A stretch of DNA of 42,809 nucleotides from a virus, in IMG/VR virus record IMGVR_UViG_3300025828_000046, positions 1 to 42,809 of that record. The stretch is one strand, 5' to 3'. Below the pieces are notes generated by a model. The model saw only the letters and a list, made by a program, of their open reading frames with translations, was not told the origin of the DNA and made no database searches. Both the position numbers and the translations under genes were made by a program. Shown here piece after piece: positions 26,622 through 42,785 of the stretch. Within the stretch, counting starts at the first letter, position 1. Every line of letters starts with the position of its first letter.

Positions 26622-27275
26622 TTACTTGCTATTTGAATTGAAACCAACACCAGGTCTTTTATCGTAAGCAAATTCAGGGTAATATGGCCCATTTTTATTT
26701 ATGTAATGAAAGAACCCTTGTACTTGATAACTGTTAGAGCCTGCTTCAAATGGATCTCTCCAATGTTCTATTTCGCATCCTCTATATATTATACAATCTC
26801 CCGGCTGTTGAGGGGTCATTATACCCTTATTACCTTTAGAAATAAAGTCTTGATCGTGTATATTGTGTCTATAGGTAGGATCAACATACATGCCCCAGTT
26901 ATAACTAGAATCTACATCTAAATAATTAAATCCAAAACATATTGTTGTAGAAATTTCGCAACTTGGACGATCTGTGTGACGCTCTAATTCCATTCCGGGT
27001 CTGTAAACTCTAAAATAAGAATAAGTTGGGCAAAGTTCTAATCCGGTATACTTTTCCATATGCGGTTTCATAAAAACCATCAATGTTTCCATTAATGTAT
27101 CAGCGTATATACTATGAGAGTAGGGAACTTGACCATTATCATCTTCTTTTTTTGGGTTTACGGTTTCTTGCAATAGACAATATTGTGTAGTAATATTGCA
27201 AATATCTTTTGGTATAATCCCTTGTAGAGCAATATATCTGTTTTCTTGAAAATTTTTATGATTTACTATTTCCAT
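26622..27275 (-). CDS. 2OG-Fe(II) oxygenase-like protein
   Basis: Probable iron- and 2-oxoglutarate-dependent dioxygenase of 217 residues. The first iron motif is ERHTDRPSCE (H100 and D102) and the distal His is in EIEHWRDPF (H171). At the usual 2OG-binding Arg position there is Gln (SYQVQGFFHYI), so co-substrate binding may differ. Central patterns such as TYSYFRVYRPGMELERHTD are typical of prolyl-hydroxylase-like enzymes. I place the start at 27275 (MEIVNHKNF), which has TAGGAAAA upstream, rather than 27296; this leaves a 10-base overlap with the upstream oxygenase gene. Last gene of a minus-strand group of three. Confidence 0.8.
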   Translation of the reverse strand: MEIVNHKNFQENRYIALQGIIPKDICNITTQYCLLQETVNPKKEDDNGQVPYSHSIYADTLMETLMVFMKPHMEKYTGLELCPTYSYFRVYRPGMELERHTDRPSCEISTTICFGFNYLDVDSSYNWGMYVDPTYRHNIHDQDFISKGNKGIMTPQQPGDCIIYRGCEIEHWRDPFEAGSNSYQVQGFFHYINKNGPYYPEFAYDKRPGVGFNSNSK

Positions 27276-28060
27276 GGTTTTCCTAAACTCCAACAAACTA
27301 AACTATATCGTGTTCCAGATGTTACAGGTGTAACTTGATGATATATATGCGACGGAAAAACAACTATACTTCCTCTAGGACGGATCTCTTCACACTCGTG
27401 ATATCTATCTGGTCTATGTGGTCCTAAGTCAAATTTTAAGTTTCCGCCTGTATAATCATTAGGATCTGATAGACTAATTGTTACACTAAGTTTTCTAATT
27501 TTGTTCCACATCTGAGGATTGTCAGTAACATGACTTTCTAAGGGCAACGGATCACCAAAGGCATTCAGCATGTCGTTACCATCTTTATCTTTTTTGGTTG
27601 AATGGATTGCAGGATCATATTTTTCATAAGGTAATACACCACAATCGGCATGCCAACCATAATATTGATTTAAACCATATTTTGTAAATTGTATGTCTTC
27701 GGTAAAATCCCAATCAAAATTCCAGCCTGCTTGCCTATTTGCCTCATGAATAAACGGCCAAATAGTTTTGTACAGCCAATCATCATTTAACCACGAAACT
27801 TCACTATCTCTTAGTGCAAAATTATTTACATCGTCACCGTCTTTGAGTGCTTCTTCTAGGGTAATGTCAGCGGCATCTTTAACTAAATTAGGATCTAAAT
27901 CGGACTTTGCCTTCCAATCGCCTGTAGTGCCTTCAACTGCATAATTTCCATAATTACGTTTTGCTTCCGACATTTTTTCTAACCCGGTTTCAATAATTTT
28001 ATCGCATACCTCTTCAGGCAATGCAGAAACAAAATACCAGTAATTATAGTTTAAAATCAT
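27266..28060 (-). CDS. 2OG-Fe(II) oxygenase (PKHD/prolyl-4-hydroxylase type)
   Basis: A 264-residue dioxygenase with a complete site: H137 and D139 (YGWHADCG), H241 and R251 (SHIYHQVTPVTSGTRYSLVC). Supporting patterns are RKLSVTISLSDPNDYTGGNL, KFDLGPH and RGSIVVFPSHIYHQV, typical of PiuC/PKHD-type hydroxylases. The N-terminal 90 residues (YWYFVSALPEEVCDKIIETG) are also typical of this group in marine phages. Its ATG overlaps the stop of the upstream paralogue by four bases (ATGA). The substrate is unknown; family members hydroxylate prolines or other residues or small molecules. Confidence 0.92.
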   Translation of the reverse strand: MILNYNYWYFVSALPEEVCDKIIETGLEKMSEAKRNYGNYAVEGTTGDWKAKSDLDPNLVKDAADITLEEALKDGDDVNNFALRDSEVSWLNDDWLYKTIWPFIHEANRQAGWNFDWDFTEDIQFTKYGLNQYYGWHADCGVLPYEKYDPAIHSTKKDKDGNDMLNAFGDPLPLESHVTDNPQMWNKIRKLSVTISLSDPNDYTGGNLKFDLGPHRPDRYHECEEIRPRGSIVVFPSHIYHQVTPVTSGTRYSLVCWSLGKPWK

Positions 28061-28677
28061 CTAAAAATTGCTCCATGAACATGTCCTAAGATAATATTTT
28101 TTTCGCCGCTGGTAACAGAATTTATTTTCCAAGTTAAGAAACTAGGAAAAATAACAATTGATCCTTTAGTATTACAATCAATTTTTGAAGTGTCTGTATT
28201 TAAAAATTCTAATTCTCCGCCTTGATATTCACTTTTATCTGACAAATTTATAATAAATGACATTTTACGAGTAGTAGCCATTGGAGTAATATCTATGTGC
28301 CAATCATAATAGTCATTTTCACTGTATTTAAAAATTTGCGGAAAATCTTGATCAATAATTCCTAATAATCTAAAATCGTAGATCTCGTCATTGGCTTGTT
28401 TTGTAATAGATCTAATATGTTGAAAGGGAAATCCTTCAACTTCTCCTCTAATTTTTTGACGTTTAGAAGAGTGCAATTCTTTCTCACCAACTACTCTTGA
28501 TTTAATCCAAAGATCTTCTAAACATCCGTCTAGTATTGTTTTACAATCTTCATCATTAAAAAGTTCTGCTACGTTTACTGATAAAATATCTAAACTTGCA
28601 AGTTTAGTTGATGTAGTTTCTTGTACAGCAGCATCTGTAAATCCGCTGTTTTGTTCAAATGTCGATTCGTTATCCAT
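28057..28677 (-). CDS. 2OG-Fe(II) oxygenase-like protein with an altered iron site
   Basis: A 206-residue relative of the next gene: YYDWHIDITPMATTRKMSFI (H127, D129), NLSDKSEYQGGELEFLN, and GSIVIFPSFLTWKINSVTSG. The position expected to hold the distal iron His is Trp183 (codon TGG read directly), and the 2OG-binding Arg position is Lys193. Downstream H199 and H201 (LGHVHGAIF) are unusual and might replace a ligand. The protein is therefore either inactive (a partner or scaffold) or has changed chemistry. First gene of a minus-strand group; AAAGGA upstream of the ATG. Confidence 0.85.
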   Translation of the reverse strand: MDNESTFEQNSGFTDAAVQETTSTKLASLDILSVNVAELFNDEDCKTILDGCLEDLWIKSRVVGEKELHSSKRQKIRGEVEGFPFQHIRSITKQANDEIYDFRLLGIIDQDFPQIFKYSENDYYDWHIDITPMATTRKMSFIINLSDKSEYQGGELEFLNTDTSKIDCNTKGSIVIFPSFLTWKINSVTSGEKNIILGHVHGAIFR

Positions 28678-28701
28678 AGTTAGTCCTTTTAGTTATATGT
28701 A

Positions 28702-28709
28702 TACTTATT
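28702..28709 (-). promoter_or_regulatory. Possible late-promoter variant (AATAAGTA) for the 28677-26622 oxygenase group
   Basis: Minus-strand AATAAGTA, one mismatch to NATAAATA, predicted start near 28696 and an 19-base leader with AAAGGA. Weak alone. Confidence 0.35.
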
Positions 28710-28723
28710 TCAATCTATTTGTG

Positions 28724-29902
28724 TCAATCAAAATAATGATACTGCATGTCTTGATCTAGATTTTTCCAAACTCCTGCCGGAAATGGAAATACTAAAGTTT
28801 GGTTTGTATAATATGCTGGTTCTAATCCTTTCATAGTATTAACATGTTGTTGCCATTTAGGATTAGATTCTAACTTTTCTTTACATTTTTTTGATGTTAT
28901 TTGCCAAAATGTGCTATCAAAAGTAGAGCCGCCGTGATACATATAATTGATGAATAATTCATAGTCTTCGGCTAAGTTGTGTAAATGAATATTTGCGGTT
29001 TCTTCTGTGTGAACATTCGCTAAAACTACATCAAAAAAAGTTCTTATTATAGAATCATACATCCAACCAGATAGAGCCTCTAACGGTTCAAAGAATATAG
29101 CTCTATTTCCATTTTTTATAATCCTTCCGTCTATAAACTTTTTTGCTTTATAATTCTTAAATGAGAATTCACGTAAATTAAGTTTGTTTTTATCTGTATT
29201 GAATATTTCAGCAATGTTATCTATTGCCTCATCTTTTGTTGTAATTTTATCATTGTACAAATAACCCCATCCTTGTCTTGACTGCAACGGAATACCAAAC
29301 ATCCAACCATTAGGATGTGCATAATGATACGTATAATTCCAATCTCCCGGCTTTGGTATCATATTTACAATGGCATGATTAACAGGAATATCTACCATTT
29401 CGTATTCTGAATAATCTTTAGGATATCCCCTACAATCTATGACATAATCAAAATCATGACTGGTATTATCTACAAAATTAATTACAGCTTTTTGTTGTAA
29501 ATTATCTAAAGATTTTATTTCACCTTCTAATACTTGGAACTTATTGTTCCATTTTTCTTTAAATCTTTTAAATGCAAATTCTTTAAGTTTAAAGTTATTG
29601 AAATGCATAGCATAAAAAGGAGGAGGTATTTTAGTAAAAAAGTCTTTTTCCCTCCAATTTACATATTTTACTCCATGTTTAATTGTGCTATCAAGTTCAG
29701 ACATATCTTGTAAAAAATTTAGATCTGCACCATAAAATAATGTTGTTGGTATTTGAGTGCTTGTACTTTCTCCTATTCCTAACATAGGAATATTTGGATC
29801 ATATACTGAAGTAATCTGCCATTCATTTGTAAAAAATGCTAAACAATGAGCTAATGAAACAACTCCTGCTGTCCCTGTACCTAATACTGCAATTTTTTTC
29901 AT
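28724..29902 (-). CDS. Compact, divergent FAD-dependent tryptophan-halogenase-like protein
   Basis: A 392-residue flavoprotein, the shortest of the five halogenase-like proteins in the window. It keeps the FAD-binding GTGTAG (8-13), the Lys equivalent to PrnA K79 (K75 in DSTIKHGVKYVNW), and the EPLE motif (272-275) with the catalytic-type Glu275 followed by Ala. The halogenase hallmark W-x-W-x-I-P reads WMFGIP (200-205), so the second Trp is Phe. Compared with the others it lacks about 40-60 residues after the Lys segment and about 50 at the C-terminus. Its ATG overlaps the upstream oxygenase stop (ATGA). Halogenation is plausible, not shown. Confidence 0.85.
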   Translation of the reverse strand: MKKIAVLGTGTAGVVSLAHCLAFFTNEWQITSVYDPNIPMLGIGESTSTQIPTTLFYGADLNFLQDMSELDSTIKHGVKYVNWREKDFFTKIPPPFYAMHFNNFKLKEFAFKRFKEKWNNKFQVLEGEIKSLDNLQQKAVINFVDNTSHDFDYVIDCRGYPKDYSEYEMVDIPVNHAIVNMIPKPGDWNYTYHYAHPNGWMFGIPLQSRQGWGYLYNDKITTKDEAIDNIAEIFNTDKNKLNLREFSFKNYKAKKFIDGRIIKNGNRAIFFEPLEALSGWMYDSIIRTFFDVVLANVHTEETANIHLHNLAEDYELFINYMYHGGSTFDSTFWQITSKKCKEKLESNPKWQQHVNTMKGLEPAYYTNQTLVFPFPAGVWKNLDQDMQYHYFD

Positions 29903-30495
29903 GTTTCGTCCACGTAATTAAACCAACCTGTAATGATATATTTTTCTTGTGTCGGAGAAGGGATTCCTCTATGTGTAAAAGTCCAATCAGCTGGCCAAAT
30001 AACAGTTTTTCCAATTTCTGCATTTACAGTAAGTTTTTGATTTAGCCATTCTGTTCCTCCTCCATCCGTAACATTATTCAAATATGTCATAAAAACTAAA
30101 TGCCTAGTAACTGTAATAGGATTGCCACTACAGCGTTCAGTGTGCCATGCATGGTATGCTTGCCCAGGTTTATACCATTGTATATTTAATGGTCTAAGCA
30201 ATCTCCATGGAGCATACATATCACAAGATGGGTATTTTTCTATATATTTTTCGACACATTTTTGTAATTGTTCAACATATTCAGCAACAACAGGAAAATC
30301 TAAACTATCGTCTATTGTTAATGATAAATCAGTAGATTCTTTTACAGATGGAGATGCTGTTACCAGTTTGCCGCCTTCAAAATTCATAGGTTTTTGTTTA
30401 GGATCCATTCTTGGGTGTGCATGAAACGTTTTAATCAACCTCTCGCATATACTTTCATCCATATAATATGTTTCTAAGAACAAGTTTTTTTCCAT
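29899..30495 (-). CDS. 2OG-Fe(II) oxygenase-like protein with HxE motif
   Basis: A 198-residue dioxygenase-fold protein. The first iron motif is WHTERCSG (H118, E120), with Glu in place of the usual Asp. Then TRHLVFMTYLNNVTDGGGTE, GKTVIWPADWTFTHRGIPSP with distal H175, and EKYIITGWFNYV with Lys185 at the usual Arg position. HxE is tolerated in some members of the superfamily. It is coupled by ATGA to the compact halogenase downstream, suggesting the two act together. Late promoter GATAAATA at 30517-30524 and TTGGAG Shine-Dalgarno. Confidence 0.85.
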   Translation of the reverse strand: MEKNLFLETYYMDESICERLIKTFHAHPRMDPKQKPMNFEGGKLVTASPSVKESTDLSLTIDDSLDFPVVAEYVEQLQKCVEKYIEKYPSCDMYAPWRLLRPLNIQWYKPGQAYHAWHTERCSGNPITVTRHLVFMTYLNNVTDGGGTEWLNQKLTVNAEIGKTVIWPADWTFTHRGIPSPTQEKYIITGWFNYVDET

Positions 30496-30549: not shown

Positions 30550-32091
30550 ATGAAAATAGTTATTGTCGGTGGTGGTACAGCAGGTTGGATGGCTGCACTT
30601 ATGTTATCTAGTAGACATCCTAATCATAAGATTGAAGTTGTAGAGTCTACTAAGATAGGAATCATAGGTGTAGGGGAAAGCACTACAGGATTACTAAGTG
30701 ATTTACTTAATAACCATTTGTGGGATTTTGGTTGTGATCACAATGAGTTTATTGCAGAAACGGGCGCCTCAATCAAATATGGTATTAAGTTTACAGGTTG
30801 GACTCCAGACACTAATGACTATTATATAGGACCAATTGACGGCAGTCTTACCAAAGAACACACACCTGATATATTTTTTGCATACGGATGTGCTAATCTT
30901 GCAAAAAAAGATCTTGTAAAAGTTTCAGAAACTGGTAACTACATTAACAAAGGATATACAAATTTTGACTTATCTACTGGTCAGTTTGTAGATCTTACAC
31001 ATGCAATGCATGTTGATGCCCATTTAGTTGGAAAATATTTTCAAAAAGTTACTTTACGAAAACCAAATACTTCGCACATAGACGCAAAGGTATTAGATTG
31101 TACATTAAATGAAAAAGGGTTTATTAATAATATTATATTAGAAGACGGTAGGAAAATAGAAGGAGATTTTTTCATTGATTGTTCGGGATTTTCAAGACTA
31201 CTTATTAGTAAAATGCCAGGTAATGACTGGGTAAGTTATCAAAAACATCTACCGGTCAACACAGGCTTACCATTTTTACTAGACTATAAAGAAGATGAAC
31301 TGCCAATGCCGCATACACATGCCTGGGCTCAAGATGCAGGATGGATGTGGCAGATACCTTTATTAGATAGAATAGGAAACGGATATGTTTTCTGTGACGA
31401 TTTTACTACTCCAGAGAAAGCTCATCAAGAAATTGAACAACGATTAGGAAGAGAAATTGATGTGCAAAAAGTAATCAAATTTAACACAGGAAGACAAAAA
31501 TCATCTTGGATTAATAACTGTCTTGCTATTGGTTTATCAAGTGCATTTTTAGAACCTTTAGAAGCAACAAGTATTCATTCTACAATAGTCCAAATAAAAA
31601 ACTTTACCTTTGATTACTTACGAGACGATTTAGAATCTACAATCAATTCAGGAACAGTTAATATTTACAATAAACGTACTAGAACAATGTTTGACGACTT
31701 CAAAGATTTTTTGGTTATGCATTATATGGGAGGACGAACCGATACAGAGTTTTGGAAACATATTAAATCTGGAGCGACTAGAACAGAGTTTGTAGAAAAT
31801 TTAATAGAAACAGCAAAAGTAAGATATCCTAATGTTAATGATTTTCCAAAATATTATGGTGCAGCAGGATGGCCGCTATATAGTTACGTAATGGAAGGTA
31901 TAGGAGTAATTGATAGAGATCTTGCATTTAAAGAAATCAATTTTGATGCACCCAGGTTAGGTAACATCTATAAATCAGTTGAAGAAAATTATCTGTACAT
32001 GCAAAAACAATGGCATGAGCAATATTCCAAAAATGCTACTTGGAATGAAATGATAAACTATTTTAGAAAACTAAGAGAAAAACATGTATAA
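30550..32091 (+). CDS. FAD-dependent tryptophan halogenase-family protein
   Basis: A 513-residue flavin-dependent halogenase-like protein. Motifs: FAD-binding GGGTAGWMA (7-15), GVGEST (40-45), Lys76 (ASIKYGIKFTGW) equivalent to the PrnA catalytic Lys79, HAMHVDAHL, FIDCSGFSRLL, WMWQIP (265-270), and EPLEATS with Glu338 where PrnA has Glu346; the next residue is Ala instead of Ser. Family members use FADH2, O2 and halide to halogenate tryptophan, indoles, peptides or other aromatics; substrate here unknown. AGGAAG Shine-Dalgarno. First gene of a plus-strand group; its stop overlaps the next oxygenase gene by eight bases. Confidence 0.93.
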   Translation: MKIVIVGGGTAGWMAALMLSSRHPNHKIEVVESTKIGIIGVGESTTGLLSDLLNNHLWDFGCDHNEFIAETGASIKYGIKFTGWTPDTNDYYIGPIDGSLTKEHTPDIFFAYGCANLAKKDLVKVSETGNYINKGYTNFDLSTGQFVDLTHAMHVDAHLVGKYFQKVTLRKPNTSHIDAKVLDCTLNEKGFINNIILEDGRKIEGDFFIDCSGFSRLLISKMPGNDWVSYQKHLPVNTGLPFLLDYKEDELPMPHTHAWAQDAGWMWQIPLLDRIGNGYVFCDDFTTPEKAHQEIEQRLGREIDVQKVIKFNTGRQKSSWINNCLAIGLSSAFLEPLEATSIHSTIVQIKNFTFDYLRDDLESTINSGTVNIYNKRTRTMFDDFKDFLVMHYMGGRTDTEFWKHIKSGATRTEFVENLIETAKVRYPNVNDFPKYYGAAGWPLYSYVMEGIGVIDRDLAFKEINFDAPRLGNIYKSVEENYLYMQKQWHEQYSKNATWNEMINYFRKLREKHV

Positions 32092-32740
32092 TGTAAAAAA
32101 TATACAAGATGATATCTTTGTAATCAAAAACATTATCCCACAAGAGTATCAAAAAAGTATTCTAGAAAAAATAAAAGGAGACAATAGCTTTCCTTGGTAT
32201 ACAATAGATAAAATTGGACATAACCAATATTCAACCGACAACAAAAGTCCTTATAAAGATAAAAATGTAAGTGACTTTGGCGGTTTATATCATATGTTAT
32301 ATGATGAAGGCATAAAAAGGTCGGAGGATTTAGATTTTTTTGCTCCTATATTAAAGAATTATTGTGATATATTTGATAAACATATACAAACAATTTTTAG
32401 AATAAGAATGCGGTACACTCATCCTATTCCTGGTCATAACAACACCAAATATGCGGCACCGCATGTTGATTTTAATGATGATATAGATTTTAAAACACTA
32501 ATTTACTATGTAGATGACAGCGACGGCGATACAATATTGTTTAGTAAATTTCATAAACCAGGAATTGATGAATATGATCCTTTTCTCGATGAAGAATTAA
32601 CAGTGGTATATAAACACACACCAAAAAAAGGAGAAGCAATAGTTTTTAACGGAAATAGATACCATGCAGGAAATTATCCAATTACATATGGTAAAAGGAT
32701 TGTTATTAACTTTGACTTTGTAGAAAAAAATGAATCATAG
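32084..32740 (+). CDS. 2OG-Fe(II) oxygenase-like protein (HMLY type)
   Basis: A 218-residue dioxygenase-like protein with a complete site: H127 and D129 (AAPHVDFNDD), H194 (NRYHAGNYPI) and R205 (GKRIVINFDF). The pattern NSFPWYTIDKIG ... GGLYHMLYDEG ... LIYYVDDSDGDTILF matches the gene at 37675 in this window, so the two are paralogues. It is translated in overlap with the halogenase gene before it and the oxygenase gene after it (11 bases), indicating one mRNA. No signal peptide. Confidence 0.88.
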   Translation: MYNVKNIQDDIFVIKNIIPQEYQKSILEKIKGDNSFPWYTIDKIGHNQYSTDNKSPYKDKNVSDFGGLYHMLYDEGIKRSEDLDFFAPILKNYCDIFDKHIQTIFRIRMRYTHPIPGHNNTKYAAPHVDFNDDIDFKTLIYYVDDSDGDTILFSKFHKPGIDEYDPFLDEELTVVYKHTPKKGEAIVFNGNRYHAGNYPITYGKRIVINFDFVEKNES

Positions 32741-33779
32741 AAAAATAAAAGTAGACGAAACAAAATTTATTGACATTTATGACGATGTTTTTGATTTTTC
32801 ACAGCATTGTTACTTGTACGAATTTGTAAAAAATTGTTCTTATAGATTAAATCGCACAGCTAGTAGTTCTGTGCCTCAAGATAAACAATTTAAGACTTTA
32901 TTAAGTGAATTTAACATACATGACTTATTAAAAATTAATTTTTTTACAGCACCTAATTTAAAATTCTTAAGAGATAAAATTAAAACACATAATTTTAGAT
33001 TACATCGAGCTTATGTCAATTTAAGTACAGCTCAAGATGTGTATCATTATCATGTTGACAGCAATATTGATGATGATTTTACATTATTATATTACTGCAA
33101 TACAGCATGGGAAGAAAATTGGGAAGGAGAAACACATTTTGGTGATACTTTAGGACAAGAAATTATACACAGTTGTTCTTTTAAACCAAACAGAGTTGTG
33201 TTATTTACAGGAACAATTCCGCACAAATCTTCTCAACCTAGTTTTTTTGCAAAAGATTTTAGGTACGTACTTACATTAAAATTTACACACCCTAACCACA
33301 AAGATTATTATACTGATTTTCCAATTTCTGATTTTTTTGATGAAAATGTAGTGCTTACTGAACGGGAAATAAATGCTTTAGAGTTTTTGCAAAAAATTTG
33401 TTCAAACATAAAGCACAGTGAATCAACCTTATATGAACATTTAAAAAATACTTGGCGGATTTTGAAAATTCAAAAAAGATCTGAAGACACATGTTTAGCA
33501 GGTATGTTTCATTCGGTATATGGTACAGAATTTTTTGATCAGCTATTATTAGATCGTGAAAATATTAAAACTATCATTGGGGATAGTGCTGAAGATTTAG
33601 TTTTTAAATTTTGTTCTTTAACAAATAGAGATGAACAATTATTAAATGATAACTGTTTTGAAAAAGAATTAATAGAAATAGCATATGCAAATTTAATTGA
33701 AGAAAAGTTTAGAAATATGTCTCATGAATCAGAAATAATTGCTTACAAAAATAAATTAGAAAAAATTAAAACTAAATGA
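32730..33779 (+). CDS. Fusion protein: 2OG-Fe(II) oxygenase plus HD-like (DUF6817-type) domain
   Basis: A 349-residue two-domain protein. Residues about 10-190 form a 2OG-Fe(II) oxygenase-like domain with H108 and D110 (VYHYHVDSNIDDD), H165 (GTIPHKSSQP) and R178 (KDFRYVLTLKF). Residues about 210-330 match the pattern of an HD-like uncharacterised domain: HSESTLYEHLKNTWRILKI (H229, H237) and CLAGMFHSVYGTEFF (H261). That domain is usually found alone or with other metabolic domains. The roles of the two parts are unknown. The last 24 bases overlap, tail to tail, the opposite-strand oxygenase gene. Confidence 0.83.
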   Translation: MNHRKIKVDETKFIDIYDDVFDFSQHCYLYEFVKNCSYRLNRTASSSVPQDKQFKTLLSEFNIHDLLKINFFTAPNLKFLRDKIKTHNFRLHRAYVNLSTAQDVYHYHVDSNIDDDFTLLYYCNTAWEENWEGETHFGDTLGQEIIHSCSFKPNRVVLFTGTIPHKSSQPSFFAKDFRYVLTLKFTHPNHKDYYTDFPISDFFDENVVLTEREINALEFLQKICSNIKHSESTLYEHLKNTWRILKIQKRSEDTCLAGMFHSVYGTEFFDQLLLDRENIKTIIGDSAEDLVFKFCSLTNRDEQLLNDNCFEKELIEIAYANLIEEKFRNMSHESEIIAYKNKLEKIKTK

Positions 33780-34376: not shown

Positions 34377-34380
34377 ACAA

Positions 34381-35899: not shown

Positions 35900-36498
35900 T
35901 TAATTCTTGTATTATGGAAAAACATATCACTGTCTACAGCCATGCCATGACATAATGCTTTCCCATCAAATAAAACTAATCTATTAAATTTTGCCGGTAC
36001 TGAATATATTAATTCGTAACGATTTTTTTGCCGCCAAGGTTCAAAATGTTCAGGAGTATTCCAAGAATCTTCACAAATTTGTTTGTAAAAATTAGTGCCT
36101 TCACTTTCAAAATTATTTAAATAAATCAATCCTGTAAATCCTAAGTCACTGTGAGGTGCCCAATAATATTTTGTGTAATCATTAAATGTTTTGTCATAAA
36201 AACGCATACAATTTGTTACTATTCTTCCAGGTTGAGCTATTTTTTGTTCTGTAAGAGTTTCAAAAAAGTTATTGTACACACACGACCTTTCATCTACAAA
36301 ATCATGTCTATGATCTAAAAAATATTTTCCATTAAAAGACGGGTTATCCCAACTTTTCCACTTATTCCACGGATGGCTTTCAATTATATCTAAGACGCTC
36401 TGCGGTTTTTTATAAAAATTGTCTATTATATAGATATTAGTGTTTAAAACACTAATTTTTTTTGTGTTATGGGTTGTAAAATCAAACAAACTAGACAT
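35878..36498 (-). CDS. 2OG-oxygenase-like protein (DUF6445 type)
   Basis: A 206-residue protein resembling the DUF6445 group: WAPHSDLGFTGLIYLNNF (H116, D118), ESEGTNFYKQI, then PWRQKNRYELIYSVPAKFNR, LVLFDGKALCHGMAVDSD (H184) and NTRINQAIFL (R198). This keeps an HxD...H...R arrangement like 2OG-Fe(II) oxygenases. It begins IYIIDNFYKKPQSVLDIIES, typical of this group. It is the last of four oxygenase-like genes in a minus-strand unit, three bases after the preceding stop. Activity and substrate are not known. Confidence 0.82.
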   Translation of the reverse strand: MSSLFDFTTHNTKKISVLNTNIYIIDNFYKKPQSVLDIIESHPWNKWKSWDNPSFNGKYFLDHRHDFVDERSCVYNNFFETLTEQKIAQPGRIVTNCMRFYDKTFNDYTKYYWAPHSDLGFTGLIYLNNFESEGTNFYKQICEDSWNTPEHFEPWRQKNRYELIYSVPAKFNRLVLFDGKALCHGMAVDSDMFFHNTRINQAIFLM

Positions 36499-36501: not shown

Positions 36502-37083
36502 TTATCCATAATTTAATGCTAAACTTATTCTAGGTTCTACATTAGTGCCTGTTTGCACACAATGTCTTACGTAAGATCTAAAAATAACTAGGGTACCTAC
36601 TTCGGGTGTATATCCTACTTTTACATAAGATAACTCGTTTCTATCTTTTATTTCTTTTAACGGTAACATATCAGGAGCTCTAGGATCTTCAAAAATTATA
36701 TTTCCACTACCTTTAGGCACTGTTACATAATACACAGCACTAAAAATACTGCCGTCATGTGTATGAAATTCTTGGAAATTACCAGGTCGTGAAATATTAG
36801 CCCAACTGTGTTCCATTTTATATTCATACATACTATTATGTGCCTTAGCAAAATCATTAACATGCTCAGTAACACATTCTATAACAGGTTCTAGTAATTT
36901 ACTTTCAGATAAATCGTGTGTAATATGAGTTGTATATGTTCCTCCTTCCCAATCTGTACCACCACTAGGTATTGTATTAGGCCATTTTAATATTTCATTT
37001 TCTATTTCTTTGTTGAAACTTGTTGGAAATAGATTTTTTTGAATATAAATCGGCGTGGGAAACCAAAGTTCTATATTAGCCAT
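36502..37083 (-). CDS. 2OG-Fe(II) oxygenase-like protein (TIGR02466 / 2OG-FeII_Oxy_5 type)
   Basis: A 193-residue member of the same group as 33756 and 37076: N-terminal ELWFPTPIYIQ, the iron segment NFQEFHTHDGSIFSAVYYVT (H107-T-H109), GSGNIIFEDPRAPDM, VIFRSYVRHCVQTG (H174) and EPRISLALNYG (R185). The WFPTPIY opening and SGNIIFEDPR are hallmarks of the family. The ATG overlaps the preceding oxygenase stop by eight bases. Probably catalytically competent; target unknown. Confidence 0.9.
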   Translation of the reverse strand: MANIELWFPTPIYIQKNLFPTSFNKEIENEILKWPNTIPSGGTDWEGGTYTTHITHDLSESKLLEPVIECVTEHVNDFAKAHNSMYEYKMEHSWANISRPGNFQEFHTHDGSIFSAVYYVTVPKGSGNIIFEDPRAPDMLPLKEIKDRNELSYVKVGYTPEVGTLVIFRSYVRHCVQTGTNVEPRISLALNYG

Positions 37084-37684
37084 CTTTTATCATCCATGCA
37101 TTAAAGGCAACACTATATCTATCCTGATTAGATTTATTTGGCTGTACTTGATGAGGCATCCAAGACGGAAAAATTATTCCGTTACCTGATTTAGGATTTA
37201 AACTATACAAAGGATAATTGTACATATTTTCTTCTTTTTTAGCAAACAAGTATTGAGTAAAATTTTGTGCTTTTACACCAAGCGGTTCGTGAAATACAAA
37301 ATTTCCGCTATCTTTACTTGTCTTTAGCCACACTACTGCACTTACAAAACTACCATAATGTTCGTGTACGCTGTGGTGTGTGGCTGGTTTATTTAAATTC
37401 AACCAACTTTCTAATCTTATGCTAGAATTTGGGTCAAAACCTATTCCGTGTAAATATTTTCTAATCATCTCTATAACATGCTCTGATAAATCGCTGTCAT
37501 TATTACCGCAATAGTTTCTCTCTATGTCTTCGTGATACGTTGTAATTGTACTTCCTAAATGATTCTTTTCATACCATTTATTTTTTCCAACAAATTTCTC
37601 TGCTAAATCTAAACTTTTTTCTATTAACGATCCAGGTAGATCAAATTTTAAAATTGGTGTTGGAAAGATATTTTCTACTTGCAT
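37076..37684 (-). CDS. 2OG-Fe(II) oxygenase-like protein (TIGR02466 / 2OG-FeII_Oxy_5 type)
   Basis: A 202-residue paralogue of the 36502 protein: ENIFPTPILKFDLPG, RLESWLNLNKPATHHSVHEH (H107-E-H109), YGSFVSAVVWLKTSKDSGNF, IIFPSWMPHQVQPN (H178) and QDRYSVAFNAW (R189). The family pattern and all ligand positions are kept. It overlaps its upstream neighbour by 10 bases and its downstream neighbour by eight, so all are translated from one mRNA. Two tandem members of one family argue for distinct substrates or for one acting with the other. Confidence 0.9.
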   Translation of the reverse strand: MQVENIFPTPILKFDLPGSLIEKSLDLAEKFVGKNKWYEKNHLGSTITTYHEDIERNYCGNNDSDLSEHVIEMIRKYLHGIGFDPNSSIRLESWLNLNKPATHHSVHEHYGSFVSAVVWLKTSKDSGNFVFHEPLGVKAQNFTQYLFAKKEENMYNYPLYSLNPKSGNGIIFPSWMPHQVQPNKSNQDRYSVAFNAWMIKDG

Positions 37685-38268
37685 TTTAAATTCACATTCA
37701 GTACTATACGTCTATTTACATGTATAGGATTACTAGCTGTATGATACTGAAATCCGTCAATTAGTAATAATCGATTAGCTTTTGGTTGAACAGTATCTTT
37801 AACAGTAAATTTTGTGGGCTCTTTATCATTATAATCCCTATAATTTTCCTCAAAAATTCTAGTATCTCCGTCACTGTCATTTAAATAATAAATGATTGTG
37901 TCGTGCGAAGATCTTACATCAATGTGGGGCAAATTATAATTTTCTTTATTGTATCCTAATTTAGGAACTTTTAACCCAAGTCTTGCTCTTAACAAATCGT
38001 CTTGCGTGTATCCAAAAGTCTGAGAAAGTTTTTCAAAAAAATCTAAAAATGCATCAAAGAACATGCCGCCATTTTTGTAATCTTCGTCATCTGAGTACAG
38101 CATATGGTACCAACCATCTGTTTCTAATGCGTACGGATCGTTAATATTATGTTCCTCCGGTGGCAAAGATACTTGATCGGCATAAAACCATGGAAATTTG
38201 TTCGACATTACAAAATTTGCAAGGTTATTGAACTTGACTTTTGGTAAAAACTCATCTATAATATGCAT
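37675..38268 (-). CDS. 2OG-Fe(II) oxygenase-like protein (HMLY type)
   Basis: A 197-residue paralogue of the 32084 protein: NKFPWFYADQVSLP, TDGWYHMLYSDDED, NLPHIDVRSSHDTIIYYLND (H115, D117), SDGDTRIFE, GFQYHTASNPIHVNRRIVLN (H176 and Arg186/187). The iron and 2OG-binding residues are all present. First gene of the four-gene minus-strand oxygenase unit, divergent from the DUF6065-like/halogenase operon 70 bases away. No convincing Shine-Dalgarno or promoter is seen on this strand. Confidence 0.88.
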   Translation of the reverse strand: MHIIDEFLPKVKFNNLANFVMSNKFPWFYADQVSLPPEEHNINDPYALETDGWYHMLYSDDEDYKNGGMFFDAFLDFFEKLSQTFGYTQDDLLRARLGLKVPKLGYNKENYNLPHIDVRSSHDTIIYYLNDSDGDTRIFEENYRDYNDKEPTKFTVKDTVQPKANRLLLIDGFQYHTASNPIHVNRRIVLNVNLKCK

Positions 38269-38338: not shown

Positions 38339-39067
38339 ATGTTCACAATATTTAAAAAGAGAAAAACAATAACAATAGATTGCTTTACAAATCATGCGTA
38401 TTCACATGATTTATTTCCTATAAAAAAAGCAACTCATTTTTTACCCGAATGGTGGAAAAAATTACCAAATAATTTTGAAACAGAAACTGCTCAGGGACTA
38501 GTCATTCCTCAAAGAACAATGAAAGGCTGCGCCGGACTAACAAATTTATATAGAAACGGAATTGTTTTACCTTTATGGAGCGACCTACTCATTGAAACTA
38601 GAGGTGCTGACTTTGCCTATCAATTTGCAGACAATATGAGTACTGTGGGATTTCATCCTTTGGATCAACTAGGTGAAGAATTTTCTCAATATACACATAC
38701 AAAAATTATAAGCCCTTGGAGAATTAAAGAAAAAACAGGAGTAAATTTTTTATATATGGATTTACCTTGGAATCATCCAAGAGACTTAATGAATCAATGC
38801 ACTCCTCCCGGATTAGTTGAATACAAGTATCAACACACTACTAATATTAATATGTTTTTACGTAAAGGTGCAAAATATTTTTTCAAAGCTGGAAGACCGA
38901 TGGCGCATCTAATACCTATGACAGATGATAATATTGAATTAAAATGTCATCTTGTAGGAGATGATGAAATTCAAAGAGTAATGAATAATTTAAGTTTTCC
39001 GTTTTTTGTTGACGGATATGCAAGAGCAAAAAGTATTTTATCAAAAAAGAACAAAGGTAAAAAATGA
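38339..39067 (+). CDS. DUF6065-like protein, halogenase-gene neighbour
   Basis: A 242-residue protein resembling the uncharacterised DUF6065 group: KKATHFLPEWWKKLPNNF, TMKGCAGLTNLYRNGIVLPL followed by WSDLL, PWRIKEKTGVNFLYMDLPWN and TNINMFLRKGAKYFFKAGRP. No catalytic motif is known to me for this group. It opens a plus-strand operon and overlaps the following halogenase gene by four bases (ATGA). The same order, a protein of this kind directly before a halogenase, occurs again at 40523-42785, which suggests a functional pair. AGAGG Shine-Dalgarno. Confidence 0.75.
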   Translation: MFTIFKKRKTITIDCFTNHAYSHDLFPIKKATHFLPEWWKKLPNNFETETAQGLVIPQRTMKGCAGLTNLYRNGIVLPLWSDLLIETRGADFAYQFADNMSTVGFHPLDQLGEEFSQYTHTKIISPWRIKEKTGVNFLYMDLPWNHPRDLMNQCTPPGLVEYKYQHTTNINMFLRKGAKYFFKAGRPMAHLIPMTDDNIELKCHLVGDDEIQRVMNNLSFPFFVDGYARAKSILSKKNKGKK

Positions 39068-40536
39068 AAATTAATAGTATAGCTATTATAGGCGGTGGAA
39101 CTGCTGGATGGTTAACTGCTGCTTATTTAAAGAATCAAATTCCACATTTAGATATTACGTTAATAGATAAAAAAATTTCTCAAACCGTGGGAGTGGGCGA
39201 GGGAACACTTTTAAACATTGGTGATTTTTTAGAAGAATGTGGTTTTCCTTTTTTTGAATGGTTTACAGAGACAGATGCATCATACAAAAGCAGTATTCTT
39301 TTTAAAAATTGGCAGGAAAAAAACAAGGATATTTGGCACCCATTTTTTAAAAGGCCAACGAAAATAAATGAAAAGTTTAGGCTACAAGATTTGTGGTCAC
39401 AAAATCAAGATTTAGACTTTAAGAAATATGCCAGTGCATTATACCAAGCCAGTATTGAAAATAAAGTTAATAATAATTCATTAAAAAGCTATGCATTTCA
39501 TATCGATTGCGGTAAATTAGTAAAATACATTCAAAATAAAATTAAAATTAATTACATAGACAGCGAAGTTGTTGTTGTCAACAAAGATAATGATATCATC
39601 ACATCTATAGAATTAGAAAATGGAAAAAATATTACAAGTAATTTATTTGTAGATTGTACTGGTTGGAAAAATATTTTAGGTGCACCTAAGTATAAGATCG
39701 ATTTGCAGGATCGATTGTTTTGCAATACCGCAATAGCAGGACATGTACCATATAAAGACAAACAAAAGGAACTTCACCCTTATGTAATTAGCGAAGCAGT
39801 AGATCATGGTTGGATTTGGAATATACCAGTATATTCAAGAATTGGTAGCGGACTTGTTTTTAATCGTAAAATTACTGATATCGAAGAAGCAAAGAAATAT
39901 TTTGTTAATTATTGGGACAACAGAATTACTGTTAATGATGTCAAAGTATTAGACTGGACTCCTTACTATTACAAGGATATGTGGGAAGGAAATAGAGTAT
40001 GCATAGGTTTAAGTGCAGGATTTATTGAACCTTTAGAAAGCACAGGTGTTGCTATGATAACAAGTGGTATAACACAACTGGCTAATGCTATTAGAGAACA
40101 ATTTATAACAGAACTTGATATAAAATATTTTAATACACAAATGCAAATACTTTTTGAAGATTGCGTAGATTTTGTAAGTATGCACTATTACGACAACAAA
40201 CGTAAAACTAATTTTTGGAATTGGGTAAATGAAACATTTGTTAAAACTGACAGAATGAAATTTTATATAGAAATGCTAAAAAACAATAATCATCCTTTGC
40301 CCTATGATGGTCATTTTAACAGTATATTTATTGGGTGTAATTGGACAACTTGGTTATGTCAAATGAATTTTGATGTAGCTAAGAGACATACTGGATTTTC
40401 AGAAGAAGAGTCAAGAGAAAAATTATTAGCAGAATATATTTTACAAGAAAAATATATTGCGGAAAATAGTATAGACCATTTAAGTACTCTAAACAGAATA
40501 CACGAACAATACCGAGTAGCAAATGAAAACAGTTAA
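39064..40536 (+). CDS. FAD-dependent tryptophan halogenase-family protein
   Basis: A 490-residue halogenase-like protein with the canonical motif set: GGGTAGWLTA (10-19), TVGVGEGT, Lys75 (DASYKSSILFKNW) matching the PrnA catalytic Lys, LFVDCTGWKN, WIWNIP (250-255) with both Trp, and EPLESTG with Glu325-Ser326 as in PrnA. These features support a working halogenase more strongly than in the other family members here except 41229. Its 3' end overlaps the next gene by 14 bases. Substrate unknown; no flavin reductase is encoded nearby, so FADH2 would have to come from the host or another locus. Confidence 0.94.
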   Translation: MKINSIAIIGGGTAGWLTAAYLKNQIPHLDITLIDKKISQTVGVGEGTLLNIGDFLEECGFPFFEWFTETDASYKSSILFKNWQEKNKDIWHPFFKRPTKINEKFRLQDLWSQNQDLDFKKYASALYQASIENKVNNNSLKSYAFHIDCGKLVKYIQNKIKINYIDSEVVVVNKDNDIITSIELENGKNITSNLFVDCTGWKNILGAPKYKIDLQDRLFCNTAIAGHVPYKDKQKELHPYVISEAVDHGWIWNIPVYSRIGSGLVFNRKITDIEEAKKYFVNYWDNRITVNDVKVLDWTPYYYKDMWEGNRVCIGLSAGFIEPLESTGVAMITSGITQLANAIREQFITELDIKYFNTQMQILFEDCVDFVSMHYYDNKRKTNFWNWVNETFVKTDRMKFYIEMLKNNNHPLPYDGHFNSIFIGCNWTTWLCQMNFDVAKRHTGFSEEESREKLLAEYILQEKYIAENSIDHLSTLNRIHEQYRVANENS

Positions 40537-41245
40537 TTGGTCTTTTCACACAGGACATGAATACAATTTAGATAATCCTAGTTCAGCAAAAAGATTTATT
40601 ACTGAAGACTATAATGGATATCAACCATTATTTAAAGACTTAATGAAAAACAGAAAAGGCGTAACATATGCCAAATGTCCAGCGGTCACAGATTTTTTTA
40701 AAAATACATTTGTGTTTTGTAGTCCAATGGATTTAAATATAGAAATTAAAGTTGATAAAAATGATGCAAGCGTATGGTGTAATAATGTAGATCAAGAATT
40801 TTTTGACCAAATGATAGATATACGTTTTTTTGACAAAAAAGAAAAAGGTATAAGTCCTTTTCCTTTATTAGGAATAGACTTTCTTAATACATTTACTTGC
40901 AAACATTCTATTATTTTGCAAACACTTCCAGCCTTCTTACACTATAACGATTTTACAAAAAAGACAAAGGTTATTCCTGGTGAATACGATATTAGCAAAT
41001 GGGTGAGGCCTTTAGAGTTAGTATTTGAAATCGAAAATACTATAGAAAAAATATCAATAAAAAAAGGCGATGCTTTGGCTTATTTTAAATTTTTAGATGA
41101 GAATATTGTTAAATTGAAAAAAAATCCAGTACCATGGATTGAAATTATTGCTTGTAACGAGATAAGAAATAAAAACAAATATAGGCCATTAAAAGAAAGA
41201 TACGATAGTTATACAATTTGGAAAAACAATGGCAACACCAATTAA
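40523..41245 (+). CDS. Uncharacterised phage protein, distantly DUF6065-like, halogenase-gene neighbour
   Basis: A 240-residue protein not clearly assigned. GVTYAKCPAVTDFFKNTFVF and CSPMDLNIEIKVD correspond in order to the KGCAGLTNLYRNGIVLPLWS part of the 38339 protein, and a later IEKISIKKGDALAYFKFLDE matches its INMFLRKGAKYFFKAG region. I therefore suspect the same fold, at low similarity. I recall CPAV.DFFKNTF-type proteins from marine phages near halogenase and oxygenase genes. It overlaps the halogenase before it by 14 bases and the one after it by 17. No catalytic motif seen. Confidence 0.65.
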   Translation: MKTVNWSFHTGHEYNLDNPSSAKRFITEDYNGYQPLFKDLMKNRKGVTYAKCPAVTDFFKNTFVFCSPMDLNIEIKVDKNDASVWCNNVDQEFFDQMIDIRFFDKKEKGISPFPLLGIDFLNTFTCKHSIILQTLPAFLHYNDFTKKTKVIPGEYDISKWVRPLELVFEIENTIEKISIKKGDALAYFKFLDENIVKLKKNPVPWIEIIACNEIRNKNKYRPLKERYDSYTIWKNNGNTN

Positions 41246-42785
41246 AAAAATAATAATCGTAGGAGGAGGAAGTGCAGGATGGATGACTGCTTCTACGATT
41301 GTAAAACAAATAAAAAATGTAGAATTAACATTAGTTGAAAGCAGTGATATTCCAACTGTGGGAGTAGGAGAAAGCACTGTAGGCGGTATCCGCAGGTGGA
41401 TGCGCATGATAGGAATAAAAGACGAAGAATTTGTAAAAGAGACAGATGCTAGTTATAAGTTAGCAATTAAATTTAATAACTTTTATGAGAAAGGTAATAC
41501 ATGGTATTATCCATTTGGTGGACCACATCTAAAAGAAAATATTTACAATCGTAATGATTGGTTTGTTAAAAAATCTCTACATCCAGATACACCAGAATAT
41601 GATATGACAGATTGTTATTACCCTCAAATGAGTTTAGTAAAACAAAATAAAATTTCTGTTGACCCAAACATTCCAGATTTTAAATTTTATGAAGATACGG
41701 CATTTCATTTTGATGCAAGTAAGTTTGGTGTTTGGTTGAAAAATCATATCTGTTTACCAAACGGTGTAAAACATATAGTTGCAGATGTATCTCCTGTTGT
41801 AGAAAATAGACAAATAAAATATCTACAATTATCAAATGGAGAGAAATTGTCAGCTGATCTATACGTGGACTGTACAGGATTTAAAAGTTTGTTGTTAGGA
41901 GAATCATTACAAGAACCTTTTATTTCATATGAAAACTTATTACCAAATAATCGCGCTTGGGCTACTAGAGTTCCTTATATTGATAAAGATAAAGAATTGC
42001 AATCAGTTACAGAGTGTACAGCTATAGATTATGGCTGGGTTTGGAATATACCTTTATGGAGTAGAGTTGGAACAGGCTATGTGTATAGCGACAAACACAT
42101 TTCCTCTGAAAATGCTTTAAAGGAATTTAAACAATATCTCAATAACAAAGGACATCAAACTGATTCTTTAGAGTTTCGTGATATAAAGATGCGTGTAGGA
42201 AGGCACAAAAAACTTTGGGTTAACAACGTGGTTGCTGTAGGTTTAAGTGCAGCATTTATTGAACCTTTAGAAAGCACAGGACTTGTAACAGTATACGAAT
42301 TTGCCATAAATTTATGCAGAGCTCTTAGAAGAAAAAACATAAGCCAATGGGATATTGACGAATATAATTCTACTAGTATAGACCAGTTTGATTACTTTGC
42401 GCAGTTTGTTTGTATGCACTACGCTCTGTCTCATAGAAATGATACTTCATATTGGCAAGATGTGACGTCAAGATCTTATCTATCAGAACTTGCAAATTTA
42501 GGCGAATTACAAACACAACGCCTATTACATCATACCATCTGGAAAAAATTTAACGATTGGCAATTGCCTTTAGATAATGGTTTATTATGCCTTGCTGCAG
42601 GTATGAATTGGTATCCTATGGATGAAATCATAATCAATGGATTCAACCAAGAAATTGAAGATAATAAAGTTTGGTATAGAAAGGCTATTGTGGGTCTAGA
42701 TATGCGCAAGGCTGAATGGAATAATGCTGTTAAAGAGTTGCCGTCATTAAAAGATTTTCTTTATACAAATTATTACAAAGATTAA
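41229..42785 (+). CDS. FAD-dependent tryptophan halogenase-family protein
   Basis: A 518-residue protein, the closest of the five to PrnA in motif content: VGGGSAGWMTAS (11-22), PTVGVGESTVGGIRRW, Lys77 (DASYKLAIKFNNF), FHFDASKFGVWLKNH, LYVDCTGFKSLL, WVWNIP (270-275), and EPLESTG with Glu348-Ser349. All residues known to be needed in PrnA-type halogenases are in place. It is the last gene of the operon that begins at 38339 and overlaps its upstream partner by 17 bases. The remaining 24 bases of the window after the stop hold no recognisable feature. Confidence 0.94.
   Translation: MATPIKKIIIVGGGSAGWMTASTIVKQIKNVELTLVESSDIPTVGVGESTVGGIRRWMRMIGIKDEEFVKETDASYKLAIKFNNFYEKGNTWYYPFGGPHLKENIYNRNDWFVKKSLHPDTPEYDMTDCYYPQMSLVKQNKISVDPNIPDFKFYEDTAFHFDASKFGVWLKNHICLPNGVKHIVADVSPVVENRQIKYLQLSNGEKLSADLYVDCTGFKSLLLGESLQEPFISYENLLPNNRAWATRVPYIDKDKELQSVTECTAIDYGWVWNIPLWSRVGTGYVYSDKHISSENALKEFKQYLNNKGHQTDSLEFRDIKMRVGRHKKLWVNNVVAVGLSAAFIEPLESTGLVTVYEFAINLCRALRRKNISQWDIDEYNSTSIDQFDYFAQFVCMHYALSHRNDTSYWQDVTSRSYLSELANLGELQTQRLLHHTIWKKFNDWQLPLDNGLLCLAAGMNWYPMDEIIINGFNQEIEDNKVWYRKAIVGLDMRKAEWNNAVKELPSLKDFLYTNYYKD

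Follow-up and report, generated by a model that had tools for sequence, protein, structure and literature searches.

Between positions 26622 and 42785 of the window, the 42,809-nucleotide stretch of viral DNA that was analysed (IMG/VR record IMGVR_UViG_3300025828_000046), lie 18 genes coding for five flavin-dependent halogenases, eleven 2OG-Fe(II)-oxygenase-like proteins and two proteins without known family (Table 1). An earlier note on this DNA had described the same halogenases and oxygenases with no unrelated gene class among them, which is borne out, but its DUF6065-like name for the remaining two genes (38339 and 40523; genes are named here by their first position) is unsupported, as neither these nor any of the six relatives scanned match a Pfam model at E <= 0.1. 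Overlaps of 4-24 bases had been given for the junctions; overlaps occur at 12 of the 17, spanning 4-31 bases, while the other five are gaps of 3-70 bases. The genes are distributed over six strand runs and the block is therefore not one operon. It is also complete, since the genes beyond 42785 in the colinear record G001 belong to another class.

Table 1. Genes of the halogenase/oxygenase block and at its two edges
Positions	Strand	Assignment	Basis
26166..26585	-	tail-fibre assembly chaperone	PF16778, Pfam E 6e-21; PHROG tail fiber assembly; adjoins left edge of block
26622..27296	-	2OG-like, phrog_2954 (annotated 'ferrochelatase' in name only)	invariant HxD...H; no Pfam match at E <= 0.1
27266..28060	-	2OG oxygenase	PF13640 over cut-off; invariant HxD...H
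28057..28677	-	2OG-like, possible pseudoenzyme	PF13640 over cut-off; distal His missing
28724..29902	-	short-type flavin-dependent halogenase	PF04820 1e-31; Lys/Glu columns kept; separate clade
29899..30495	-	2OG oxygenase	PF13640 over cut-off; invariant HxE...H
30550..32091	+	flavin-dependent halogenase	PF04820 2e-99; Lys/Glu columns kept
32084..32740	+	2OG-like (phrog_274)	PF13640 below cut-off (8.5e-4); invariant HxD...H
32730..33779	+	2OG-like domain fused to DUF6817	DUF6817 over cut-off; PF13640 below cut-off (1.1e-5); HxD...H
33756..34376	-	2OG-FeII_Oxy_5	PF13759 over cut-off; HxH...H
34415..35899	+	flavin-dependent halogenase	PF04820 6e-92; Lys/Glu columns kept
35878..36498	-	2OG-like, DUF6445 (PF20043)	HxD...H
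36502..37083	-	2OG-FeII_Oxy_5	PF13759 over cut-off; HxH...H
37076..37684	-	2OG-FeII_Oxy_5	PF13759 over cut-off; HxH...H
37675..38268	-	2OG-like (phrog_274)	DUF6445 at 0.095 only; HxD...H
38339..39067	+	protein without known family (phrog_7084), relatives in other halogenase clusters	PHROG, own HMM
39064..40536	+	flavin-dependent halogenase	PF04820 2e-83; Lys/Glu columns kept
40523..41245	+	protein without known family (phrog_17480), relatives in other halogenase clusters	PHROG, own HMM
41229..42785	+	VirX1-type flavin-dependent halogenase	PF04820 3e-110; best solved relative VirX1, 6qgm
42782..42809	-	first of three tandem glycine-rich genes, 3' end	PF21722; remainder past window

Enzymes of the block and their integrity

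The chaperone that the earlier note had placed directly beside the block is confirmed, and a PF16778 gene adjoins the block also in G006, G007, G009, L103 and L104; a GroEL gene lies beyond it in the window, on the side away from the block. The terminase is nearest to those of PA5oct-type jumbo phages (54%), although a T4 gp15-like gene is also present; the phage is apparently of the giant 'jumbo' kind rather than a standard T4-like phage. Late-promoter-like sites reported earlier were not recovered: the exact TATAAATA motif, the only form counted, is absent from the block and occurs once in the window (24153) against 7.4 expected. No Rfam family reaches its gathering threshold in the window.

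All five halogenases match PF04820 over the curated cut-off. The columns of K77 and E345 (41229 numbering), which presumably correspond to the catalytic K79 and E346 of PrnA, are invariant in the 14 aligned proteins, including all five block halogenases. GxGxxG and WxWxIP are diagnostic halogenase motifs; the former is found in all five and the latter in three, with W.F.IP in 28724 and 34415. By sequence grouping the five enzymes fall in five clades, 41229 being placed with the VirX1-type enzymes and sharing 38% identity with a Syn9 gene. VirX1, an enzyme of cyanophage Syn10, and the second halogenase of Syn9 agree in sequence, and the gene of the latter adjoins glycine-rich genes. Known substrates of this halogenase family are free tryptophan, indoles and small aromatics, which counts against adhesins as substrate. 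In agreement with the earlier note, none of the 18 genes in the block could be recognised as a flavin reductase.

The eleven oxygenase-like proteins each match one of PHROGs 61, 81, 274, 1644 and 2954, with PF13640 or PF13759 over cut-off in six and PF13640 below it in two. Seven carry HxD/E...H and three the HxH...H of the PF13759 type, giving a plausible metal-ligand set in ten of the eleven. HMMs built from 38339 and 40523 detect relatives directly after a halogenase in Syn9, S-CREM1, Sf-FP1 and Sf-FR1, and the sole matches to 38339 in a scan of viral contigs were two records of the virus from which the window comes. An AlphaFold2 model of 38339 from four sequences was unusable (mean pLDDT 30.8). 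Among the neighbours of halogenases, the small gene phrog_1787, located between the glycine-rich genes and the halogenase, was considered as a known chaperone and set aside (no Pfam match; no significant PDB match, best E 0.38), and the 414-449-aa Cys-rich protein phrog_1458, found beside some halogenases, gave no Pfam match in three proteins and no PDB match in the one searched.

Two other IMG/VR records (G001 and G003) carry the block colinearly at 99.9% identity and three further lineages hold partly rearranged versions of it, 2 of the 18 counterparts (29899 and 32084) not being found by ORF calling in G009. The reading frames are intact and dN/dS lies between 0.03 and 0.20, with all 18 genes at or below 0.20 in at least one comparison; these values are approximate, the pS of block genes being 0.55-0.74. 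Selection on the block thus looks purifying. The earlier note had held that inactive enzymes or a chimeric assembly would overturn its view, and neither was found, as the block recurs in several lineages as a unit and most active sites look intact, which fits the 'dedicated oxidative tailoring system' it had envisaged.

Linkage to putative glycine-rich tail-tip genes

Beyond the block, three tandem PF21722 genes extend over 38266-41617 of G001, equivalent to window coordinates 42782-46133. All three products match PF21722 over cut-off and contain 30-33% Gly. They match the tail fibre of cyanophage Pam3 by profile (E 6e-4), and the sole fold match of a glycine-rich model at E <= 1e-3 is to the Pam3 fibre structure 7ypx (E 2e-5); this is supportive only, since mean pLDDT is 55.5 and the model is good only at approximately residues 67-175 and the C-terminal strand. 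The three proteins thus appear similar to a receptor-binding fibre, and in Pam3 receptor binding is proposed for the glycine-rich loops at the distal end (PMC9608196). Within the glycine-rich domain, all 15 paralogues from five contigs keep one Trp and also the Pro of GQG(F/Y)P. The earlier statement that no substrate gene is visible therefore holds for the window, but perhaps not for the phage.

The trio abuts the end of the block in all six lineage-group contigs mapped there (G001, G007, G009, G037, G038 and G039). A wider comparison covered 25 genomes, mostly Kyanoviridae, of which 18 were taken through a halogenase match and seven by accession for comparison (four of the latter also with a halogenase). 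Of the 19 phage genomes having both genes, 10 show a halogenase no more than 3 kb from a PF21722 match (expected 1.13, maximum 6, 0 of 5000 rotations); in the other nine the distance is greater. Among the PF13640 matches listed, 2OG genes are at most 10 kb from PF21722 in 20 of 21 genomes (expected 9.8, maximum 19, 0 of 5000 rotations), while at 3 kb the association is not significant (7 of 21; 354 of 5000 rotations). The rotations used all PF21722 matches, halogenase matches merged per gene, and PF13640 matches to E of about 8.5e-6. In S-SM1 and S-RSM4 a glycine-rich gene is followed by 2OG genes, though a halogenase was not found.

IMG/VR loci retrieved with 41229 were screened by an own rule for glycine-rich genes (at least 28% Gly within a 120-residue stretch). 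Such a gene lies 4-2256 bases from the halogenase in 13 of the 14 loci with at least 3 kb of 5' sequence, near-identical viruses being among the 14; these derive from 28 loci, from which the window's kin (L010-L014) and those with less than 3 kb of 5' sequence (L016, L021, L022, L025, L027-L030 and L034, none showing a glycine-rich gene) were left out. The single exception is L037, the halogenase of which groups with 39064. Of 80 terminase loci serving as control, not matched for tail genes or closeness to tail fibres, 0 showed a glycine-rich gene; among bacterial halogenase loci the count was 2 of 80. Short-type halogenases outside the lineage group have one in 1 of 10 loci (L044 and L046-L054, some short or near-duplicate). 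Six of the nine terminase-related contigs having a PF21722 match, among 16 picked by length from the 80 loci, lack a halogenase, and several phages encode a further halogenase elsewhere in the genome. The Trp content of halogenase-linked glycine-rich domains is not clearly higher than that of the others (1.43% vs 1.14%; G037 and G038, of the same lineage, are both counted). The 2OG gene ORF23 of S-TIM4, among the host-adaptation mutations of PMC6224464, was rejected as a test of the idea, being near baseplate genes and approximately 16 kb from the glycine-rich ORF41. Runs of tail genes end with these glycine-rich genes, and that end may be a hot spot of insertion.

Proposed role and its alternatives

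As relatives of the block enzymes adjoin glycine-rich tail-tip genes in many phages, the enzymes may decorate tail tips, which lends circumstantial support to tail-protein modification among the jobs suggested in the earlier note; modification of host peptides and production of a halogenated small molecule, also suggested there, are still conceivable. Judged by position and sequence, it is about as likely as not that the block serves the post-translational tailoring of this phage's glycine-rich tail-tip adhesins. The three tandem proteins would be made and held by the fibre chaperone, for which the product of 26166-26585 is a candidate, while prolyl-4-hydroxylase-type and other 2OG oxygenases would hydroxylate residues in or beside the glycine-rich loops and the halogenases would add halogen to aromatic residues, the invariant Trp for example. 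The five halogenases, which separated long ago, and the oxygenases, of which up to ten are intact, could serve different sites or different paralogues, and the altered loops may change adhesion, stability or receptor range. From this arrangement we infer that the adhesins are what is modified, and likewise when this happens, at which residues and to what advantage.

Other virion proteins could instead be the substrate, such as the giant CBM_5_12-repeat fibres encoded after the glycine-rich genes, the latter being mere neighbours. Further downstream but still nearby lie a 647-aa protein with five CBM_5_12 matches and 3.6% Trp and an 1861-aa protein with six. Yet in ten cyanophages and in 13 of the 14 IMG/VR loci the halogenases have glycine-rich genes as their closest structural neighbours, whereas giant fibre genes differ in how many there are, how large and how far away, and this reading appears unlikely. 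Production by the block, during infection, of a small molecule carrying halogen and hydroxyl groups or of a modified peptide (an antibiotic, signal or toxin) is likewise improbable, as is decoration of a host polysaccharide. The available text of PMC7824862 proposes such a role for the halogenase/2OG/carbamoyltransferase cluster of S-SSM6a, the halogenase of S-SSM7 from a cluster of this kind groups with 39064, and antibiotic protection or altered host metabolites are mentioned in excerpts of PMC2984593 and PMC10452541. However, the 18 block genes (two without known family) include nothing recognisable as a scaffold synthase, carbamoyltransferase, precursor peptide or transporter, nor a resistance gene, which is a criterion for secondary-metabolite clusters, and the recurrent glycine-rich neighbour is left unexplained.

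Hot-spot regions are described for cyanophage genomes in accessible parts of PMC3037559, and halogenase/2OG clusters are located at tail-gene boundaries; accessory genes could thus simply gather at the ends of tail runs and their linkage to glycine-rich genes be functionally meaningless. This is rather unlikely, as the same gene classes occur together in differing orders in this jumbo lineage, in T4-like cyanophages, in further phage contigs of IMG/VR and in a Maricaulis-binned contig, and the low dN/dS of all 18 genes speaks against it. A service of the oxygenases to host metabolism, through 2-oxoglutarate drawdown steering nitrogen signalling or through DNA repair, is very unlikely: a host-metabolism role in cyanophages is proposed in PMC3037559 and repeated in PMC9602691, in the portions available, but it would account neither for five halogenases being accompanied by eleven oxygenase copies of distinct sequence nor for the tail-tip linkage. 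The lower G+C of the block (31% vs 37% in window 1-26600) might suggest an assembly chimera or decayed gene island, the probability of which is negligible given the colinear records, divergent lineages, intact frames and dN/dS.

Relation to known phage systems

The block shares with Syn9 and Syn10 (6qgm) a VirX1-type halogenase, beside glycine-rich genes in Syn9 also, but has five halogenases from five clades where the cyanophages examined have one or two at the tail locus. The cultured cyanophages, with one or two halogenases and several 2OG genes per cluster, contradict the earlier view that relatives hold single members only; this jumbo-phage lineage has the largest version of the module among those seen. 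In one survey, tryptophan halogenases occur in 20 of 153 cyanophages (PMC10452541). Numerous PF13640/PF13759 enzymes of low mutual identity are also a feature of the cyanophage 2OG expansions, with ten genes in S-CREM1 and 24 in S-SCSM1 (PMC9964418, PMC9602691); in the accessible text, however, these are genome-wide counts read mainly as host reprogramming, whereas here eleven are contiguous with five halogenases. In the S-SSM6a/S-SSM7 cluster, too, 2OG and cupin-like genes accompany a halogenase in the vicinity of tail genes, but according to PMC7824862 it includes carbamoyltransferases and sugar-handling genes, none of which, nor a HemK-like methylase, was recognised in this block. The glycine-rich neighbours match the tip protein gp24 of Pam3, comparable to T-even gp38, by profile and fold, while the accessible literature on Pam3 gp24 and PP01 gp38 makes no mention of a tailoring enzyme.

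The accessible portions of open-licence PubMed Central literature demonstrate no native substrate of phage tryptophan halogenases or 2OG oxygenases, and the recurrence of the linkage with one class of putative receptor-binding protein makes this question directly testable. It is conceivable, at somewhat less than even probability, that phages remodel their own receptor-binding proteins, at the loops in contact with the host, through a hydroxylation/halogenation module encoded with glycine-rich adhesins and a chaperone, and that VirX1-type halogenases, like the majority of clustered phage 2OG oxygenases, natively serve this purpose. If true, these phages would recognise their hosts by means of chemistry that enzymes install, that is invisible in the genome and that adhesins made in E. 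coli would be without.

Composition and conservation of the block

Translation and Pfam/PHROG scans of the linear virus record of 42,809 bases confirmed the halogenase/2OG block described in the earlier note as 18 contiguous genes, of which five code for PF04820 halogenases and two for unknown proteins, the other eleven being 2OG-Fe(II)-oxygenase-like. The gene overlaps reported there are found at twelve of the 17 junctions (4-31 bases), while the other five are gaps of 3-70 bases. Six strand runs are present (five genes on the minus strand, three plus, one minus, one plus, four minus and four plus), and the block therefore consists of units facing each other rather than a single operon. Some block proteins that match a 2OG Pfam family or have an invariant metal-ligand motif also receive PHROG labels such as 'minor coat protein', 'ferrochelatase' or 'DNA endonuclease V', which are not to be taken as functions.

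Coordinates of the block and of other features discussed
Sequence	Positions	Feature	Remarks
Window	18330-18761	NUDIX gene	Adjoins the following gene
Window	18764-19126	Small protein, PHROG 'cysteine dioxygenase' match	Possibly a further oxidative enzyme outside the block
Window	20281-22830	Subtilase (Peptidase_S8) among structural genes	Weak tail-fibre PHROG match as well
Window	24194-26169	GroEL (PF00118) and GroES-like gene	Left of the block; GroES-like gene recognised by eye
Window	26622-42785	Block of 18 genes	
Window	28057-28677	2OG-like gene 28057	Distal metal His absent
Window	32730-33779	DUF6817 (weak HD_4 match) fused to 2OG-like domain	His residues conserved
Locus L015	6293-7642	Cys-rich protein (phrog_1458)	Directly before halogenase; no Pfam match
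Locus L024	8760-10004	Cys-rich protein (phrog_1458)	Directly before halogenase; no Pfam match
Locus L031	2129-3412	Cys-rich protein (phrog_1458)	Directly before halogenase; no Pfam match
Locus L057	8948-16503	Downstream fibre-like proteins	5 and 6 CBM_5_12 carbohydrate-binding matches
S-TIM4 (L290)	25569-32479	Glycine-rich ORF41 (33% Gly), then carbamoyltransferase and 2OG genes	One 2OG gene annotated as leprecan-like

An assembly chimera, a possibility raised with the original observation, is contradicted by two further IMG/VR records of this virus, in which the block recurs colinearly, and by counterparts in divergent lineages. The 61,061-base record G001 is colinear with 38,293 bases of the window (99.95% identity), while G003 matches 18,267 window bases including the whole block (99.95%). 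The related contig G006 (74% DNA identity) retains ten left-hand block genes in order, the tenth truncated by the contig end. Counterparts of all 18 genes, mostly at 45-60% protein identity (31% for the gene starting at 37076), are encoded in G007 together with one extra 2OG gene, which is shared by G009, where 16 of the 18 are present. In both contigs the counterpart of the VirX1-type halogenase 41229 is relocated and falls in a different subclade of the halogenase tree, suggesting from sequence that this gene was replaced in their line. G037/G038 and G039 (GroEL identity 72% and 66%, respectively) encode four halogenases each, along with 2OG and DUF genes, in a partly different order. With synonymous sites near saturation, comparison with G006 gives dN/dS values of 0.05-0.19 for ten block genes, and comparison of G007 with G009 gives 0.03-0.20 for 16, so that each of the 18 genes is covered by at least one comparison.

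Inactivity of the enzymes, likewise raised earlier, is not borne out, as the catalytic positions are kept in the halogenases and the metal ligands in most 2OG-like genes; the block enzymes thus look functional. The columns of K77 and E345 of 41229, which correspond to the catalytic Lys/Glu pair of PrnA, are invariant in all 14 aligned halogenases. Seven of the eleven 2OG-like proteins have an invariant HxD/E...H motif and three the HxH...H form of PF13759. The gene 28057 lacks a metal ligand, yet is conserved under purifying selection, and may possibly code for a pseudoenzyme. The five window halogenases occupy five separate clades in a tree of 79 such proteins. Orthologues of four of them are present both in G007/G009 and in G037 or G039, and 41229 clusters with the IMG/VR loci L013 and L014; the five are therefore old paralogues kept separately, not recent copies.

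The nearest terminase relatives are those of PA5oct-type jumbo phages (54%), followed by Sinorhizobium phage Phosso, and the longest contig with a related terminase measures 357 kb. A sheath protein and a T4 gp15-like sheath stabiliser are both encoded. GroEL also adjoins the block in G006, G007, G009 and two further loci (L103 and L104), and possibly folds unusual tail tips or the block enzymes.

Linkage to glycine-rich tail-tip genes

Beyond the window end, G001 encodes three tandem PF21722 proteins of 369-373 residues with 30-33% glycine, all ending in VIVRY or a near variant, followed by a Peptidase_S74 protein of the endosialidase-chaperone type and by very long proteins resembling fibres. 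Three glycine-rich genes also adjoin the block end in G007, G009, G037, G038 and G039. A profile from 13 glycine-rich proteins matched the Pam3 cyanophage tail fibre (E 6e-4), and Pam3 7ypx was the sole match at or below 1e-3 (E 2e-5) in a search with a predicted glycine-rich structure of mean pLDDT 55.5. In PMC9608196, the variable distal tip of the glycine-rich domain of Pam3 gp24 is proposed as the receptor binder and a chaperone is needed; here, a PF16778 fibre-assembly chaperone lies at the block edge opposite the glycine-rich genes. Receptor loops on a poly-glycine sandwich are described for T-even gp38 in PMC12892980.

In ten cyanophages (Sf-CH11, S-RIM44, Syn9, S-CREM1, P-RSM6, S-WAM1, P-TIM40, Sf-FP1, Sf-FR1 and S-SZBM1), one or more glycine-rich genes come first, then one or more halogenases and finally 2OG genes. 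The first two are separated by a single small gene in nine of them and by two 2OG genes in Sf-CH11, whose cluster is bordered by glycine-rich genes on both sides; a relative of the unknown block proteins was detected in four of the ten clusters. Among 25 genomes searched at E<=0.001, PF21722 is present in 21, PF04820 in 22 and PF13640 in 25. When gene sets were rotated within each genome (5000 rotations), a halogenase within 3 kb of PF21722 was observed in 10 of the 19 genomes with both, and missing in nine, against 1.13 expected (0/5000), this evidence being positional throughout and from partly related phages. Among the PF13640 matches listed, 2OG genes lie within 10 kb of PF21722 in 20 of 21 genomes (9.8 expected, 0/5000), without significance at 3 kb (7/21, 354/5000), and the halogenase-2OG linkage is weaker (6 kb: 13/22 against 7.0 expected, 29/5000; 3 kb: 6/22, 898/5000).

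In 13 of the 14 IMG/VR loci that were found with 41229 and have 3 kb or more of sequence on the 5' side, the halogenase lies 4-2256 bases from a glycine-rich gene; the exception is L037. With a similar detector, such genes occur at 0 of 80 terminase loci, which are unmatched for tail genes, and at 2 of 80 bacterial halogenase loci. One of these two, the Maricaulis MAG contig NZMJ01000035.1 (L211), has a phage-like block (glycine-rich, 2OG, DUF, 2OG, 2OG, halogenase, five 2OG), which may hint at alphaproteobacterial hosts. Three of 16 related-terminase contigs have a halogenase, each with PF21722 within about 6 kb, and PF21722 is matched in six more that lack a halogenase. Along with the nine genomes without proximity at 3 kb, several results count against a functional link: several cyanophages carry an additional halogenase far from the tail tips, and short-type halogenases beyond this lineage group show the linkage at one of ten loci. 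Glycine-rich domains linked to halogenases also show no clear enrichment in tryptophan (1.43% vs 1.14%).

Aside from these associations, the phrog_1458 proteins (414-449 aa) are possibly further or replacement enzymes. An ORF of more than 650 aa lies near 74 of the 80 bacterial halogenases (L210-L289), and may code for a TonB receptor, a known neighbour at such loci. Halogenase relatives are also encoded in four Campylobacter phage records and two human faecal sample records.

Candidate substrate and comparison with known systems

The analysis lends partial support to the earlier interpretation of the block as a dedicated oxidative tailoring system, and makes it more specific through a candidate substrate encoded outside the window, the glycine-rich proteins. 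From the observed genes, conservation, catalytic positions and linkage, we infer a model specifying substrate, residues, timing and benefit, in which the block enzymes would hydroxylate and halogenate the glycine-rich tips before or during assembly. For this lineage group, the candidate sites would be the residues invariant in 15 of 15 glycine-rich paralogues from five contigs, namely a Trp in the glycine-rich domain, the Pro within GQG(F/Y)P, and one position each for Arg, Asn, His and Tyr. Gly follows the GQG(F/Y)P Pro in 14 of the 15, and the collagen prolyl-4-hydroxylase consensus is X-Pro-Gly. Leprecan, to which the S-TIM4 annotation refers, is a prolyl 3-hydroxylase.

VirX1, the best solved relative of 41229, agrees in its printed sequence with the second halogenase of Syn9, which has glycine-rich genes nearby. 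The glycine-rich genes of Syn9 are gp36, gp38 and gp39, close to two halogenases and several 2OG genes. In print, phage halogenases and 2OG enzymes have been interpreted as giving antibiotic protection (PMC2984593), altering host metabolites (PMC10452541) or acting in DNA repair or 2-oxoglutarate control (PMC3037559, PMC9602691), and a halogenated metabolite or capsule decoration was proposed for the S-SSM6a cluster (PMC7824862). Protein modification is named as one of several general possibilities (PMC9964418, PMC9602691). Searches of open-licence papers found none that proposes modification of tail tips by such enzymes. Cultured cyanophages already carry such a cluster, unexplained, of which the block is an enlarged variant. 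Chemical tailoring of phage adhesins as a system would be new.
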